This document shows, one piece after another, positions 928 to 61,302 of a stretch of DNA of 64,000 bases. The stretch is from assembly GCF_013394855.1 (NCBI RefSeq), contig NZ_JABMLK010000001.1:2065501-2129500 (forward strand). Direction: 5' to 3'. The notes below the pieces were generated by a model, which saw nothing but the letters and a program-made list of their open reading frames with translations, made no database searches and had not been told where the DNA came from. Origin of the DNA: Limnobaculum xujianqingii. Its GTDB lineage: Bacteria > Pseudomonadota > Gammaproteobacteria > Enterobacterales > Enterobacteriaceae. The translations under genes were made by a program, and so were the position numbers. Each line of letters starts with the position of its first letter. Position 1 is the stretch's first letter.

Positions 928-2034
928 TTATTCTGTTGGCTCCAACAGCGATTTACCATTACGCACAAATCCGGGTTTAACTACCCGTACCGGCATTTCA
1001 CGATTGCGAATTGGCACAATAGCTATATCACCAATACCCTGTGGAACTCGCGCCAGAGCAATACTGCAACCCAACGTAGGGGAGAAGGTACCGCTGGTGA
1101 TCACACCCTGATGCTCTTTACCCGCCGCATCACAAAACATCACCGGCAGCTCATTACGCAACACACCTTTTTCAGTCATTACCAGGCCAACCAGTTTGTC
1201 AGTGCCCTGTTTACGCAGAACCTCTAATCTTGCACGACCAATAAAGTCACGATCTGCTGGCTCCCAGGCAATAGTCCAACCCATATTGGCGGCTAAAGGA
1301 GAAACCCCTTCATCCATCTCCTGACCATACAGGTTCATTCCCGCTTCCAGACGCAATGTGTCACGGGCCCCTAAACCACAAGGCTTAACGCCTTCAGCCA
1401 TCAGCTTCTGCCACCAGTCATCCAATTGGCTGGCTGGCATCATCAGTTCATAGCCCTCTTCCCCGGTATATCCGGTAGTGGCAATAAACAAATCGCCAGA
1501 CTGAACGCCAAAGAAGGGTTTCATCTGGCTAACCGCCTGACGCTGCTCTTCTGTCAGTAAGGTAGCGACTTTTTGCTTCGCCTCTGGCCCTTGTACCGCA
1601 ATTAATCCCAGATCTTCACGTACATGGATTTCGACGGCAAAGGGCCTGGCATGTTCACTAATCCACGCCAGATCCTTTTCGCGGGTAGAGGAATTCACAA
1701 TCAAGCGGAAAAAATCTTCTGTCAGAAAATAGACAATCAGATCGTCAATCACCCCAGCCGAAGCATTCAGCATTGCGCTGTACAGTGCTTTACCAGGTTG
1801 AGTTAACTTGACGACATCGTTTGCTAACAGATAACGAAGAAATTCACGGGTGTTAACGCCGTGCAAATCCACAATAGTCATATGGGATACATCAAACATA
1901 CCTGCGTGCTGACGTACGGCATTGTGTTCATCGATTTGTGAACCGTAATTCAGTGGCATCATCCAACCATGGAAATCAACCATGCGGGCGCCACAGGCGA
2001 GATGTCTATCGTACAGAGGGGTCTTATTGGTCAT
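928..2034 (-). CDS. gcvT: Aminomethyltransferase (glycine cleavage T protein)
   Basis: The T protein takes the aminomethyl group from GcvH and transfers the methylene to tetrahydrofolate, releasing ammonia. At 368 residues it is close to the enteric length of about 364. Family hallmarks visible are the N-terminal [13 protein letters not shown] region, DVSHM, the YTGEEGYE segment and [18 protein letters not shown], then the C-terminal barrel domain. The ATG at 2034 follows AGAGGA. It is the first gene of gcvTHP. No glycine riboswitch is evident in the leader, in line with enteric operons that use GcvA, Lrp and PurR instead. Confidence 0.97.
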
Positions 2035-7854: not shown

Positions 7855-7921
7855 AGTTGCTGTCCTTTCGCGTTCGGATTGATGAAAATTTTATGGGACT
7901 GTTGCAAATTGCCACGGAGTC

Positions 7922-7981
7922 CAGCCGAAAGACCGGTTGTACTTTAGATCAGAGAACGTCGGGCTTGACCCTCTGATGAAC
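7922..7981 (+). repeat. R1 element, 5'-truncated copy (R1-1)
   Basis: A partial copy that keeps the inter-hairpin segment with the gtactttag core and the second hairpin, whose arms are CAGAG and CTCTG. The same stem is GGAGGG/CCCTCC in the next two copies. Its first hairpin is lost. It is the first of three R1 units in a row. Confidence 0.7.
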
Positions 7982-8007
7982 TTCTTTTGCTGTTAGCTGT
8001 TTTGGAT

Positions 8008-8108
8008 ATTCCGGCCGTAAAAGCAGTGTTGCTCATATCATCTTTGTGCTCGGCCGGAAGACCGTCTGTACTTTAGTTTGGAGGGCGTCGGGCTTGGCCC
8101 TCCGATTA
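8008..8108 (+). repeat. R1 element, short form (R1-2)
   Basis: This short copy of about 100 bp has hairpin 1, TTCCGGCCG (8009-8017) pairing with CGGCCGGAA (8051-8059), and a compact hairpin 2, GGAGGG (8080-8085) with CCCTCC (8098-8103). It lacks the long inner stem seen in full copies. It is nearly identical to the first two thirds of the next copy, so this pair looks like a recent tandem duplication. Confidence 0.85.
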
Positions 8109-8136
8109 ACATTTCTTACTATTGGCTACTGTGGAT

Positions 8137-8290
8137 ATTCCGGCCGTAAAAGCAGTGTTGCTCATATCATCTTTGTGTTCGGCCGGAAGACCATCTGTAC
8201 TTTAGTTTGGAGGGCGTCGGGCCTAGTCAGCCTAGGGGCGCTCCGGCAGCTAAAGCTGCTACGACCCCAACGGCAGCCTCTCCCTCCGAT
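8137..8290 (+). repeat. R1 element, long form (R1-3)
   Basis: A full-length copy. Hairpin 1 is TTCCGGCCG (8138-8146) with CGGCCGGAA (8180-8188). The outer stem of hairpin 2 is GGAGGG (8209-8214) with CCCTCC (8282-8287). The inner stem is GCAGC-TAAA-GCTGC, where other copies have TTGGC-NNNN-GCCAA. The inner-stem difference is fully compensatory. Confidence 0.85.
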
Positions 8291-8343
8291 TAGCAATGCT
8301 AACTGCCAACCAAACATTTCATTCGGGAATTTAATATTTATAT

Positions 8344-8455
8344 TTTGCCCTTTGCCCTTTGCCCTTTGCCCTTTGCCCTTTGCCCTTTGCCCTTTGCCCT
8401 TTGCCCTTTGCCCTTTGCCCTTTGCCCTTTGCCCTTTGCCCTTTGCCCTTTGCCC
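8344..8455. repeat. Tandem heptamer array, 16 perfect copies of TTTGCCC
   Basis: Sixteen uninterrupted, identical copies of TTTGCCC (112 bp) lie between two dispersed-repeat blocks in the ygfB-pepP spacer. Their perfect identity implies recent expansion or frequent slippage, so copy number probably varies between isolates. Open frames through it are a by-product of the unit length and are not called as genes. Confidence 0.97.
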
Positions 8456-8479
8456 TTCAGGTTAAAGCATCCGAATGTT

Positions 8480-8740
8480 GCCGAAGGAAGACCAGAGGCA
8501 GCACGAACCGCATGGATGCGGTGAGAGGCATAGCGACGCCGGGAGCGGCTCTATGCCGGTGCGTTAAGCCTCTGGGCTGACTGAGGTTGCCGCCGCAACG
8601 CGGCGGTCAACAGTCGGCTGCGTTGGCGCGGGGAGTGCAGAGGGGCGTTCGCCCTAACGCCCCTTTGCTCGACGCAAACACCCTTGCCGAGATAGCCACA
8701 ACACCTAAAGCGGCGAAACTTACACTTGATCAAACATTCA
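8480..8740 (+). repeat. R2 element, copy B
   Basis: A dispersed element of about 250 bp sharing constant segments with 39555-39777. Stems visible: ACCGC (8507-8511) with GCGGT (8518-8522) around loop ATGGAT; GGCATAG (8527-8533) with CTATGCC (8551-8557); a long middle hairpin centred on 8596; and GCAGAGGGGCGTT (8637-8649) with AACGCCCCTTTGC (8656-8668) around loop CGCCCT. The loops match copy A but the arms differ in a paired manner. Confidence 0.8.
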
Positions 8741-22104: not shown

Positions 22105-22671
22105 ATGAGTCAAGTGAAACACGTAGCCGTTTTGGTTGGTAGCCTGCGTAAAGAGTCAATCAACAGAAAAATTGCCCTGGCATTGGCTAAATTAGCTCCC
22201 TCTTCAATTAAGCTGGATATCGTGGAAATTGGCGATTTACCTCTCTATAGCGAAGATATTGATGTCACTCCAGCACCTGCCGCTTACACTACATTCCGTA
22301 ATCAAATCAAAGCTGCTGATGCCGTATTATTTGTCACCCCTGAATACAATCGCTCTGTGCCAGCAGCATTAAAAAACGCACTGGATGTAGGTTCTCGTCC
22401 TTACGGTCAAAGTGCCTGGTCAGGAAAACCTGGGGCTGTTGTTAGCGCATCACCGGGTGCCATTGGCGGTTTTGGTGCCAACCACCATCTGCGTCAATCA
22501 CTGGTATTCCTGAATATTCCATGTATGCAGCAGCCGGAAGCCTATATCAGTAACGCCGGGGCTATTTTTGAAGAGAGTGGTGAGCTAACTGAAAGAACCA
22601 AAGCCTTCCTGCAAAGCTTTGTTGATGCTTATGCTGATTGGGTTCTATTTCAGACTCGCCCACAAAAATAG
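22105..22671 (+). CDS. NAD(P)H-dependent FMN reductase
   Basis: Flavodoxin-fold oxidoreductase of the ChrR/YieF/SsuE-like PF03358 family, reducing FMN, quinones or chromate in the cytoplasm. It has 188 residues. The FMN phosphate loop is GSLRKESINRKIA (residues 11-23) and the isoalloxazine-contact motif is TPEYNRSVPAALKNALD. AAGGAG lies seven bases before the ATG. It is not part of the E. coli loiP-speB spacing, so it is lineage-specific at this spot. The physiological substrate cannot be told from sequence. Confidence 0.88.
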   Translation: MSQVKHVAVLVGSLRKESINRKIALALAKLAPSSIKLDIVEIGDLPLYSEDIDVTPAPAAYTTFRNQIKAADAVLFVTPEYNRSVPAALKNALDVGSRPYGQSAWSGKPGAVVSASPGAIGGFGANHHLRQSLVFLNIPCMQQPEAYISNAGAIFEESGELTERTKAFLQSFVDAYADWVLFQTRPQK

Positions 22672-22697: not shown

Positions 22698-22725
22698 AAA
22701 ACGGCTGATAAATATCGGCCGTTTT
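22698..22725 (+). terminator. Terminator after the FMN reductase gene
   Basis: Arms aaaacggc (22698-22705) and gccgtttt (22718-22725) lie 26 bp after the stop codon. An R1 element begins about 40 bp further on. Confidence 0.7.
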
Positions 22726-22762
22726 AATGTGATGGCCAACCAGATAAATTGGCCTCAATAAA

Positions 22763-22920
22763 TATTCCGACCGTAAAAACACAGTGCTTATATCTGCATC
22801 GAGAACGGTCGGTAAACCATCTGTACTCAGCTATGGTGCGCGTTGGGCCTGGCCGGGTTAGGGGCACTTCGTTGGCTTACGCCAAGTCGCCCCCAACACC
22901 CGTCCCTCCCAACGATTGGC
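22763..22920 (+). repeat. R1 element, long form (R1-4)
   Basis: Full copy between two terminators and between convergent genes. Hairpin 1 is CCGACCG (22767-22773) with CGGTCGG (22806-22812). Outer stem 2 is CGTTGGG (22841-22847) with CCCAACG (22908-22914). Inner stem is TTGGC (22872-22876), loop TTAC, GCCAA (22881-22885). It shares an extra 5' flank (aaattggcctcaat) with copy R1-6. Confidence 0.9.
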
Positions 22921-22963
22921 TATCTTAAGGTATTAAACTGAACTGGCAGACTTTGTCATTAAT

Positions 22964-22995
22964 AAAAAACGGCTGATAATTGTCAGCCGTTTTTT
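22964..22995. terminator. speB terminator
   Basis: A 13-bp stem, aaaaaacggctga with its complement, carries A and T runs on the two sides, so it can work in both directions. It lies about 35 bp beyond the speB stop. Confidence 0.9.
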
Positions 22996-23029: not shown

Positions 23030-23947
23030 TTACTTTTTCGCTGCCTGCATATACAGCATATCCAGAGCAACTGTCGCGGCTGCCAGCGCGGTCATCTCTG
23101 CGTGATCGTAAGAAGGAGCTACTTCCACTACATCCATTCCCACGATATCCAGCGATTGTAATCCACGCAGAATTTTTAGTGCACGGTCAGACGTTAATCC
23201 ACCACACACTGGCGTACCGGTACCCGGAGCAAAAGCAGGATCCAGACAGTCAATATCAAACGTCAGATAAACCGGCATGTCTCCTACAATCTTTTTAATC
23301 TGAGCAACAACATCATCTACTGTGCGATCGTTTACCTGAGCGGCATCCAATACGGTGAAACCGTTGTCAGTATCATGCTCAGTACGGATACCAATTTGTA
23401 CTGAACGTGTAGGATCAATCAAACCTTCATTTGGCGCATGATAAAACATGGTGCCATGATCAAACTTACTGCCGTTAGAGTAAGTATCGGTATGAGCATC
23501 AAAATGAACCAAAGCCATTTTGCCAAAATGTTTAGCGTGAGCTCTTAATAAAGGCAGCGTCACAAAGTGGTCACCACCAAAAGTCAGACAGCGCTTACCG
23601 GCAGCCAGTAAACGTTCGGTGTGAGCCTGAAGCTGTTCACTCATGTCCTGAGCGTCACCAAAATTAAAAACCACATCACCGCAATCAACAACCTTCAATT
23701 TGCTTTGCAGTTTGAATGTCCATGGCCAACGACAGGATTCCCAGGCCAGATTAGTCGATACCTGACGAATGGCCGCTGGTCCATGACGAGCGCCTGAACG
23801 ACCAGAGGTTGCCATATCGAAAGGAACACCGGTGATAACCCAATCAGCATCACTCTCATACGGTTGGAAATTGAGTGGTAAACGTAAAAAACCAAAAGCA
23901 TTGGAGACCAGTGAATTATCAGGCTTATTGCCAAGCGTGCTATTCAT
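23030..23947 (-). CDS. speB: Agmatinase
   Basis: Hydrolyses agmatine to putrescine and urea in polyamine synthesis. It has 305 residues. The binuclear Mn ligands are all present: GGDHFVTLP (His), [11 protein letters not shown] (Asp, His, Asp) and [19 protein letters not shown] (two Asp). A TTG start at 23959 is possible, but GAGGAA six bases before the ATG at 23947 and the conserved STLG N-terminus favour 23947. It is normally next to speA; here yhgN on the opposite strand separates them. A terminator-like hairpin sits in its leader. Confidence 0.96.
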
Positions 23948-24032
23948 TGTATTCCTCAAAAAGTCTGCGTTATCTTTCCGTTATCCCATGCTATCGGCAA
24001 TGAGTCATAAATGGAAATCAACTAAGTCGCGA

Positions 24033-39554: not shown

Positions 39555-39777
39555 AGGGTAGCACGGCTGGCATGGATGCCAGCCGAGGCGCAGCGACGTC
39601 GGGAGCGGCTCTGCGCCGGTGCGTAAGCCCGAATGAAGGCGGAGGGAAGTCGCCTAAGCGACCTGGATTCGTGTGCGAAGGCGCGGGAGTGCAGAGGGAA
39701 TTCGCCCTAATTCCCTCTGCTCGGCTGCCAGCACCTCAGTCAAACAAAACACTGAAGGTTTAGCAGACGAAACTTAC
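39555..39777 (+). repeat. R2 element, copy A
   Basis: Lies between the convergent hemW and yggN ends and fills most of that 326-bp spacer. Stems: GGCTGGC (39565-39571) with GCCAGCC (39578-39584) around loop ATGGAT; GGCGCAG (39587-39593) with CTGCGCC (39611-39617); a middle hairpin closed by CGAAT/ATTCG; and GCAGAGGGAATT (39691-39702) with AATTCCCTCTGC (39709-39720) around loop CGCCCT. Constant parts match copy B at 8480-8740. Confidence 0.85.
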
Positions 39778-44661: not shown

Positions 44662-44712
44662 TCTCAGATTTCTTAGTCTACTGATAAACCTAATAAATCA
44701 GCATCAAGAGAT

Positions 44713-44869
44713 ATTCCGGCCGTAAATGCATAGTGCTTATATTTCTTTTGTGCGCGGCCGGAAAACAATTTGTACTTGGTATTGGAGTGCGTTGGGCCTA
44801 GCCGGGTTAGGGGCGCTTCGTTGGCTGACGCCAAGTCGACCCCAACACCCGTCTCTCCCAACGATTAGC
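44713..44869 (+). repeat. R1 element, long form (R1-5)
   Basis: Hairpin 1 is TTCCGGCCG (44714-44722) with CGGCCGGAA (44755-44763). Outer stem 2 is CGTTGGG (44790-44796) with CCCAACG (44857-44863); nested inside are CGGGT/ACCCG, GGGG/CCCC and TTGGC-TGAC-GCCAA. It lies downstream of the mltC unit and upstream of a terminator, so it would be part of that transcript's 3' UTR. Confidence 0.9.
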
Positions 44870-44897
44870 TTTTTTAAGGCACAAAACAGGACCAGAT

Positions 44898-44931
44898 AAA
44901 ACCGGCAAATAATCGATATTGCCGGTTTTTT
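44898..44931 (+). terminator. Terminator after R1-5
   Basis: Arms aaaaccggcaa (44898-44908) and ttgccggtttt (44919-44929), followed by more Ts. It ends the mutY-yggX-mltC transcript beyond the repeat. Confidence 0.85.
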
Positions 44932-47491: not shown

Positions 47492-47537
47492 GTTACCAAT
47501 AAAAAATGCCGCTTATGCGGCATTTTTTATTGGTAAC
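47492..47537. terminator. Long-stem bidirectional terminator
   Basis: A perfect 21-bp inverted repeat (47492-47512 with 47517-47537, loop ttat) just after the antiporter stop. Internal A and T hexamers flank a GC core, which suits termination from both sides. Confidence 0.9.
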
Positions 47538-47576
47538 AAAGTCTGAAAGTTCGGTTTTATGTTTTAAAATAGTCAA

Positions 47577-47729
47577 TTGTCGGGAGGGGCTTCCGTTGGG
47601 GTCGACTTGGCGCAAGCCAACGAAGCGCCCCTAGGGAGACCAGGCCCGACATGCACCAAAGTCAAGTACAGGCGGTCTTCCGGTCGAGCATCAAGCCAAT
47701 ATAAGCACTTTAGATTTTACGACCGGAAT
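47577..47729 (-). repeat. R1 element, long form, inverted (R1-6)
   Basis: Minus-strand orientation. Outer stem is TGTCGGG/CCCGACA (47578-47584 with 47645-47651), where other copies have CGTTGGG/CCCAACG. Hairpin 1 is CCGGTCG/CGACCGG (47680-47686 with 47720-47726), a third variant of that stem. The inner TTGGC-TTGC-GCCAA is kept. It lies between convergent genes. Confidence 0.9.
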
Positions 47730-47778
47730 ATTCATTGAGGCCAATTTATCTAATTTGCCATAATGCAAATGAAACTAC

Positions 47779-61055: not shown

Positions 61056-61110
61056 TTTTTAGCTAGCAGATAGAACACAGTTCTATATCTCTTCTAAGTT
61101 AATGCTAAAG

Positions 61111-61267
61111 CCAATCGTTGGGAGGGACGGGCGTGGGGGTCGACTTGGCGTAAGCCAACGAAGTGCCCGTAGCCCGGCCAGGCCCAACGCGCACCACAGC
61201 TAAGTACAGGTTGTTTTCCGGCCGGGCACAATACCAATCTAAGCACTATGCCATTACGGCCGGAATA
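61111..61267 (-). repeat. R1 element, long form, inverted (R1-7)
   Basis: Minus-strand orientation between the NifX-type gene and the amidohydrolase end. Outer stem CGTTGGG (61116-61122) / CCCAACG (61183-61189); hairpin 1 CCGGCCG (61218-61224) / CGGCCGG (61257-61263); inner TTGGC-TTAC-GCCAA. The intermediate stem is CGGGC/GCCCG here versus CGGGT/ACCCG in R1-5. Confidence 0.9.
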
Positions 61268-61302
61268 TACACTAACACCAAATTACCCCTGTACTACCTC
61301 AC

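Follow-up and report, generated by a model that had tools for sequence, protein, structure and literature searches.

A repeat at positions 22763 to 22920 of a 64,000-nt stretch of the Limnobaculum xujianqingii genome (the window) contains two hairpins and recurs elsewhere in the same stretch. This raises the questions of what kind of element the repeat is, how it was dispersed, and whether its fold is maintained. The initial annotation had listed seven copies that share one architecture (hairpin 1, a constant joint, and a nested hairpin 2) and had not recognised the family. The stems that it named are indeed present in the sequence. A profile of the full element recovered all seven sites, and the common architecture was found in five of them, the other two being fragments. 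The five long profile matches (22728-22963, 44675-44892, 47763-47529, 61285-61106, and 8121-8304) had scores of 262 to 142 bits. The span that had been proposed for the copy at 22763 lies inside the real unit and is too narrow, as the unit extends from about 22726 to 22965, between hairpins at 22698-22725 and 22966-22993. These duplicated hairpins on either side were used to fix its boundaries (Table 1). A comparison of the repeat, here called R1, with Rfam yielded no family at the gathering score; the window gave 6S RNA and tRNA only, and the weak Rfam hits around the copy at 22763 were far below the cut-offs.

Table 1. Positions of R1 copies, their parts and neighbours in the window, and of related features elsewhere
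Feature	Position	Strand	Remarks
R1 MITE, full, about 240 bp	22726..22965	+	nhmmer with full-element profile, 262 bits (match 22728-22963)
Duplicated target stem-loop, left copy, AAAACGGCTGATAAATATCGGCCGTTTT	22698..22725	.	Terminator-like; single copy in G001 and G002
Duplicated target stem-loop, right copy, AAAACGGCTGATAATTGTCAGCCGTTTT	22966..22993	.	Terminator-like
Hairpin 1	22767..22812	+	CCGACCG 22767-22773 with CGGTCGG 22806-22812; covariation in helix 1
Hairpin 2, nested outer, intermediate, and inner stems	22841..22914	+	Covariation, helices 2-5
Hairpin 2 outer stem, 22763 copy	22841-22847 with 22908-22914		CGTTGGG with CCCAACG
ORF, 188 aa, 5′ of the element and pointing at it	22105..22671	+	NCBIfam: no match
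Agmatinase gene, convergent on the R1 element	23030..23959	-	
R1 copy	44674..44912	+	Match covers model positions 2-219
R1 copy, full length	47526..47768	-	Hairpin AAATGCCGCTTATGCGGCATTT abuts the 3′ end
R1 copy, degraded at both ends	61083..61302	-	Model positions 21-200
R1 copy without ends	8102..8325	+	Model positions 24-206
R1 fragment: hairpin 1, joint, shortened hairpin 2	7981..8108	+	Profile match 8002-8099, 68 bits
R1 fragment, weak match	7886..7990	+	Profile match 7906-7970, 14.5 bits
Short hairpin-2 element	L080 about 960-1100; L081 about 975-1110		Next to hairpins
IS200/IS605-type Y1 (PF01797) transposase loci, this genome	C1:2842015-2842377; C1:2706901-2707260		

Other repeats were seen near the R1 copies of the window. 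A tandem direct repeat of 129 bp at 7924-8181 is made of two partial R1 copies, and a tandem array of the 7-bp unit TTTGCCC (8344-8460) adjoins this cluster. A second structured repeat is present at 8497-8569 and 39557-39637; by eye, its two copies show paired differences, and they match the Rfam family TwoAYGGAY with 30.3 and 38.2 bits, under the gathering score of 43.

R1 as first delimited is the interior of an element of about 243 bp with inverted terminal repeats, and the name is used for the whole element from here on. The ends are CAGACTGCTGACAAA on the left and CAGATTGATGACAAA on the right; when 30 genomic copies were flipped to one strand, conservation ran past the hairpins from the former to the complement of the latter. 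With up to two mismatches, the end motif had 147 matches in the genome, compared with 25 for the reversed pattern. The inverted pair of ends was 243 bp apart in six of nine fetched loci, L050, L057, and L060 being different. A full-length set was assembled from 151 profile hits, of which 65 had both ends and flanks and 61 were unique (46 from this genome, 12 from congeners, and 3 from named contigs). Fifty-three of these 61 copies have a length of 240-245 bp, and R1 is therefore too short for a transposase gene.

The covariance model revealed at least 150 R1 matches in this genome (G000, 4.76 Mb), since all 150 scored candidates matched, and 132, 106, and 136 matches among 150 scored candidates each in three congeners. 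Locus L040 of one congener, G001, is the same DNA as a Limnobaculum allomyrinae contig, in which 54 of 63 windows of 50 nt had exact matches and the other nine lie outside the part fetched; this agrees with Limnobaculum as the host genus. All four genomes of the genus thus had matches, while none was found in 246 genomes outside the genus, in a search that scored at most 11 candidates per genome and could miss relatives. The same was true for blastn with 294 genomes outside the genus, with at most two candidates scored for each among the matches listed, so that relatives could be missed here as well. Neither plasmids nor E. coli genomes matched the full element, and phages gave a single 27-nt match (E 0.2). 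R1 is carried by Leminorella contigs, including Leminorella grimontii.

The locus in the window was informative about how R1 arrived. Between the ORF of 188 aa and the agmatinase gene, the sister species G001 and G002 have one hairpin, AAAACGGCTGATAAATATCAGCCGTTTT, and represent the empty site, whereas the same hairpin occurs twice, around R1, in this genome and in G003. The whole stem-loop is thus duplicated in the DNA. The R1 of G003 is inverted relative to the window copy and shares 70.7% identity with it, to be compared with a background identity between R1 copies with a median of 71.5% and a 95th percentile of 81.8% (500 random pairs). Unlike R1 elements therefore occupy one hairpin in two species. 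Most simply, this hairpin was hit twice by independent insertions; conversion plus inversion is another possibility. Comparison of flanks uncovered four further loci with R1 in two species, the locus assignments resting on short flanks. At L023/L243 and L044/L231 the elements are at background identity (74%), and at L041/L008 they are 88% identical and have opposite orientations, which suggests that one hairpin was used repeatedly at each of these three loci. At L259/L211 the elements are 91.6% identical and probably represent one insertion in two species.

The duplication was quantified for all full-length copies. Thirteen of the 61 copies had a flank duplication score of 12 or more. The same held for 4 of 3660 mismatched flank pairs used as control, and the pair L001/L256, which is one locus in two species, accounts for two of the four. 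At a score of at least 10 the numbers were 18 of 61 and 32 of 3660, respectively. No duplication was found at this score in the remaining 43 of 61 copies, which we assume to be old. The duplication at L049 (AATTAACGAATTACATTCGTTAATT) is perfect, and a search for its empty site found no match for the flank in the other three genomes. Hairpins next to the ends were counted as well: 34 of the 61 copies are abutted at one or both ends by a hairpin whose stem scores 8 or more, compared with 1.9% of shuffles, and for a score of at least 6 the values are 50 of 61 and 16.2%. Judged by eye from their stem and T tract, the flanking hairpins look like terminators. Of the 122 flanks, 42 have a stem of 6 or more at offset 0; the foot of the hairpin is A..T in 39 of these 42, compared with 45 of 136 in shuffles. 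Shuffles were the only control, and because ordinary terminators favour A and T at these positions, the A:T foot at R1 flanks may partly reflect such terminators rather than the choice of a transposase.

The neighbourhood of R1 was analysed at 30 loci with long flanks, using uncurated ORFs of at least 90 codons as neighbouring genes. The neighbours are convergent at 18 loci, in tandem at 11, and divergent at one, so that one or both neighbours are directed towards R1 at 29 of the 30 loci. Most of the 30 copies lie some tens of bases 3′ of a stop codon. The prevalence of convergent genes, between which bidirectional terminators are common, would fit the alternative that the flanking hairpins are not target duplications and instead represent two terminators that existed before. 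However, the two hairpins agree in the loop as well as in the stem, such agreement was seen in only 4 of the 3660 mismatched flank pairs, and there is one hairpin in G001 and G002. We regard pre-existing terminators as an extremely improbable explanation.

The ends of R1 were then found on larger elements. Scans of viral contigs yielded 61 loci with the left end and 29 with the right end, and in 7 of these 90 loci two ends lay in inverted orientation no more than 4 kb apart. Two of the seven are insertion sequences of about 1.6 kb, L141 with an intact ORF of 479 aa and L131 with a broken one. L141 is an insertion sequence (IS) of 1596 bp with the ends of R1, and its 479-aa protein belongs to the IS1182 family (NF033551, 494 bits at a cut-off of 270; also DUF772 and DDE_Tnp_1_6). 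A further locus, L142, is a YPAL element into which an IS110-family gene has been inserted; the parts to either side of this gene share 86-88% identity with RU-2. The loci L106 and L118 represent relatives with lengths of 140 and 138 bp. The end pairs of L084 and L098 seem fortuitous on visual inspection. The interrupted YPAL element of L142, a viral contig, spans positions 369-1904.

L141 had been chosen by its ends, and a fairer test was offered by 14 plasmid relatives that were found by their protein, 13 of them picked from 45 records at E ≤1e-100 plus one distant member. A de novo search for inverted repeats revealed R1-type ends in 12 of the 14. A Gram-positive member, L186, has a close version of the R1 ends, and the distant ISCfr1 copy L188 has other ends. 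For L131 the ends were set by the motif, and the de novo search gave none. Even the difference between the left and the right end of R1 recurs in several of the IS copies (L141, L175, L176, and L182). Taken together, the left and right ends of the L141 subgroup of IS1182 elements are those of R1, with a close version in Alkalihalophilus. The copies fetched for the subgroup came from plasmids of Providencia, Salmonella, Klebsiella, Salinivibrio, Vibrio, Rhizobium, Sphingobium, and Alkalihalophilus. The elements of the subgroup are 1.5-1.6 kb long and include a transposase gene, in contrast to R1.

The insertion sites of the IS copies resemble those of R1. All 15 copies examined (13 from plasmids, L141, and L131) have a hairpin within 2 nt of both ends, with an A:T foot as at R1, and 12 of them, like 13 to 18 of the 61 R1 copies, lie within a duplicated whole stem-loop, i.e., between two equal or nearly equal stem-loops. 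The flanking hairpins are identical in 10 of the 15; in addition, L183 has an exact duplication of 25 nt, and the hairpins of L131 are one base apart. The exceptions are L178, with the same stem and an inverted loop, and L175 and L187, where the two hairpins are unlike, a pattern expected after recombination between IS copies. Three YPAL-type elements also lie between like hairpins, which are identical in two cases and include a mismatch in the third. In these 18 IS and YPAL-type elements the foot is A..T in 35 of the 36 hairpins. The length of the duplication tracks the hairpin, from 15 bp in L141 to 25 bp in L183, and the 28 bp of L177 include bases beside the hairpin.

These results lead us to conclude, with good confidence, that R1 is a non-autonomous MITE of about 243 bp that was probably moved in trans by a transposase of the IS1182 subgroup, and that it is a sister of YPAL. 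Two scans of the four genomes of the genus, one of them without a positive control, detected no IS1182 transposase, and the partner is therefore deduced from other organisms. The IS1182 gene of the relative G026 (L067) had been a candidate and was rejected due to its different ends.

The initial annotation had proposed, in addition to an RNA motif, that the hairpins are recognised as single-stranded DNA, as in RAYT/REP mobilisation, and had suggested a search of the genome for RAYT genes. Two Y1 (PF01797) loci are indeed present, and together with the strong hairpins of R1 they would be compatible with a REP-like element that is moved as single-stranded DNA by a hairpin-recognising RAYT/IS200-type transposase. 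Yet neither locus looks like a RAYT. The protein of the intact one is an IS200 transposase (138 bits) and reached 22.5 bits with REP_Tyr_transpos, far under the cut-off of 80, and the other has an internal stop and, by eye, adjoins a TnpB-like ORF; RAYT/IS200 was thus rejected as the mover of R1. R1 also has the terminal inverted repeats that it shares with the DDE-type IS1182 elements, and it duplicates long targets comprising whole hairpins. HUH elements are not known to generate such target duplications, and mobilisation of the REP/RAYT type is very improbable. REP sequences are palindromes of 20-40 bp that carry a GTAG or CGTC tag, and the R1 unit comprises 243 bp with inverted repeats.

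YPAL, reportedly the subject of a study by De Gregorio in 2006, is among the known systems closest to R1. The left end of YPAL/RU-2 is identical to that of R1 and of the IS elements at 15 of 15 positions, and its right end agrees with the right end of the IS elements at 11 of 15. Insertion at dyads with target duplication is common to R1 and YPAL, and the YPAL in L142 sits between two copies of ACTCACTGAGTGAGT. In contrast, YPAL/RU-2 has a length of 167-168 bp, whereas R1 has 243 bp and a two-hairpin interior of its own. A blastn comparison of RU-2 with R1 loci aligned the ends alone in L010 and nothing in L001. As length and internal sequence are unlike those of YPAL, R1 represents a sister family and is not a YPAL. 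YPAL is discussed by Delihas (PMC2229807, PMC2759123); passages of the former describe internal inverted repeats, intergenic locations, and target duplications (3-26 bp) that coincide with or adjoin dyads, and name no transposase (PMC2229807).

A shorter element on plasmids of Yersinia frederiksenii and Serratia proteamaculans (L080/L081) shares hairpin 2 with R1, 68 nt being 81-85% identical to the window copy at 8008-8300. It has about 140 bp and lacks hairpin 1, whereas R1 has both hairpins; by eye, the ends of L080 resemble those of R1. The element may be one of the repeats Kristensenii39 or Aldovae3 of PMC2847712, for which the pertinent passages give lengths of 142 and 154 bp (PMC2847712).

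In ISfinder, the duplications of IS1182 elements range from 0 to 60 bp. Most DDE transposases make fixed, short duplications. Within the family, targeting of hairpins has precedents. Furi 2016, citing Siguier, states in a passage on the family that some IS1182 members target palindromes (PMC4923244). According to passages of PMC4923244 and PMC5678879, IS1272/TnSha1, IS1182-family elements of staphylococci, target hairpins in both orientations, several of which are terminators. The outcome differs from that at R1, as the hairpin is deleted by IS1272/TnSha1 and duplicated around R1: the relevant parts of the two papers describe removal of all or part of the target hairpin by IS1272 with no duplication left (PMC5678879) and, by Furi and colleagues, hairpin-targeted deletion by TnSha1 (PMC4923244). 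That a member of the same family deletes the hairpin is a point against our explanation (PMC5678879, PMC4923244, in the passages cited). Duplication of the whole hairpin appears in the corresponding section by Wan and colleagues solely as the drawing of a possible pathway b (PMC5678879).

A mechanism can be proposed that would account for the duplications. An IS1182 transposase supplied in trans, and now absent from the sampled genus, would have moved R1, as the shared ends suggest. The transposase would recognise an extruded pair of hairpins by its shape, with an A:T pair at the foot, and the 3′ ends of the element would be joined to the two 5′ feet of the cruciform, a structure that we infer from geometry and anatomy alone. 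The points of attack at the feet of a cruciform would be neighbours in space at any stem length. Gap filling would then duplicate the whole stem-loop, and the length of the duplication would equal that of the hairpin. After insertion, the folded interior might stay paired, perhaps as an RNA hairpin in a 3′-UTR, which is a guess by analogy with YPAL.

The fold of the R1 core was analysed with an alignment of 50 cores, 49 of them distinct. RNAalifold predicted 27 pairs, with changes on both sides in 14, and the structure was extended by hand to a final 30 pairs. The initial annotation had claimed repeated paired changes in the stems, and with the 49 distinct copies four of five measures were above chance. 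Changes on both sides were observed in 17 of the 30 pairs (11.1 ± 1.5 in shuffles), 150 cells were changed on both sides (46.5 ± 6.3 in shuffles), and the covariation score was 0.281 (0.114 in shuffles). Standard pairs filled 94.1% of the cells, compared with 84.3% in shuffles and 28.7-56.2% with slid partners, the percentage being inflated by derivation of the structure from the same sequences. The fifth measure, the number of further pair types in the stems, was 27 and not above the shuffles (27.6). At the weakest position, 102-152, 41 of the 48 countable sequences do not pair. The variants of the outer stem of hairpin 2 that had been noted before were recovered as two registers, CGTTGGG/CCCAACG or GGAGGG/CCCTCC. 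Distinct R1 subtypes have stems in common.

The duplicated hairpins also offer a clock for changes after insertion. Sixteen copies were chosen, i.e., the 18 with a duplication score of at least 10 minus L008, L217, and L259 plus L042 (8.5), and their duplications differ at 40 of 386 positions. Under the assumption that 80% of stem changes break a pair, 19.9 broken pairs were expected in helices 1, 4, and 5, and 3 of 240 were observed (P 1.8e-6). Inclusion of helix 3 gave 11 of 352 versus 29.2 expected, and all helices gave 28 of 464 versus 38.5 (P 0.04), with helix 2 counted in one register only. The test would be conservative if the duplications are selected, and it is biased in the opposite way because the copies were found through their cores. 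Singletons were mildly depleted in stems: the 60 stem columns contained 15, of which 9 still allow pairing, and the 96 unpaired columns contained 38; as a test for selection this is suggestive only. Hairpin 2 does not differ between L259 and L211 by eye. The stems thus look preserved after insertion, although bias is possible. The earlier claim of selection on a folded form is supported by the covariation and by the number of broken pairs, which is lower than decay of the flanking duplications predicts, again with possible ascertainment bias.

What the fold is kept for can be read in two other ways. The structure might be kept only in source elements, where it would aid transposition or replication, while inserted copies drift and the covariation mirrors source subfamilies. 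The stems common to distinct subtypes and the only mild depletion of singletons fit this explanation, the few broken pairs after insertion (with the ascertainment bias mentioned) and the unchanged hairpin 2 of L259/L211 do not, and we give it somewhat less than an even chance. Alternatively, R1 might primarily be a functional RNA family, an attenuator or a 3′-UTR stabiliser, with dispersal as a by-product. Covariation, the rarity of broken pairs in helices 1, 4, and 5, and the location of most copies soon after a stop codon point in this direction; in contrast, the dispersal of R1 has the anatomy of a transposon and Rfam contains no match at the gathering score, which leaves this alternative possible and slightly more doubtful than the previous one.

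mRNA protection has reportedly been described for YPAL. When both flanking hairpins are included, the RNA of R1 is predicted to fold far better than shuffles (z -7.4), in part because the duplicated palindromes contribute. An RNA role of R1, perhaps in mRNA protection as in YPAL, is plausible by analogy; a passage of PMC2229807 mentions that YPAL might influence RNA stability.

In summary, the ends and the targets tie YPAL, R1, and the shorter relatives to one subgroup of IS1182. A literature search found no paper that links YPAL to IS1182 or describes R1, and to judge from this search, a MITE family that connects YPAL with IS1182 and duplicates entire hairpins has not been described before, R1 being its first known member. 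The duplication of a whole stem-loop, elsewhere only drawn as a possibility (in the part of PMC5678879 cited above), is observed here many times, together with an A:T foot and an empty site, and the exact cases have lengths of 15 to 25 bp and more. A more far-reaching proposal, that a DDE transposase chooses its target by shape with the hairpin setting the length of the duplication, that R1 and YPAL, driven by it, have spread into terminators as safe sites, which they duplicate and do not destroy, and that the interior of R1 is kept as 3′-UTR RNA, is tentative, and we lean slightly against it as a whole. The repeated duplications make it possible to ask experimentally whether a DDE transposase reads a cruciform. 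As many targets are terminator-like and each neighbour is left with one, an insertion would be nearly harmless, so that copies would accumulate 3′ of genes. If the flanking hairpins act as terminators, this might explain how the high copy number of more than 100 is tolerated, because both neighbouring genes would retain one.
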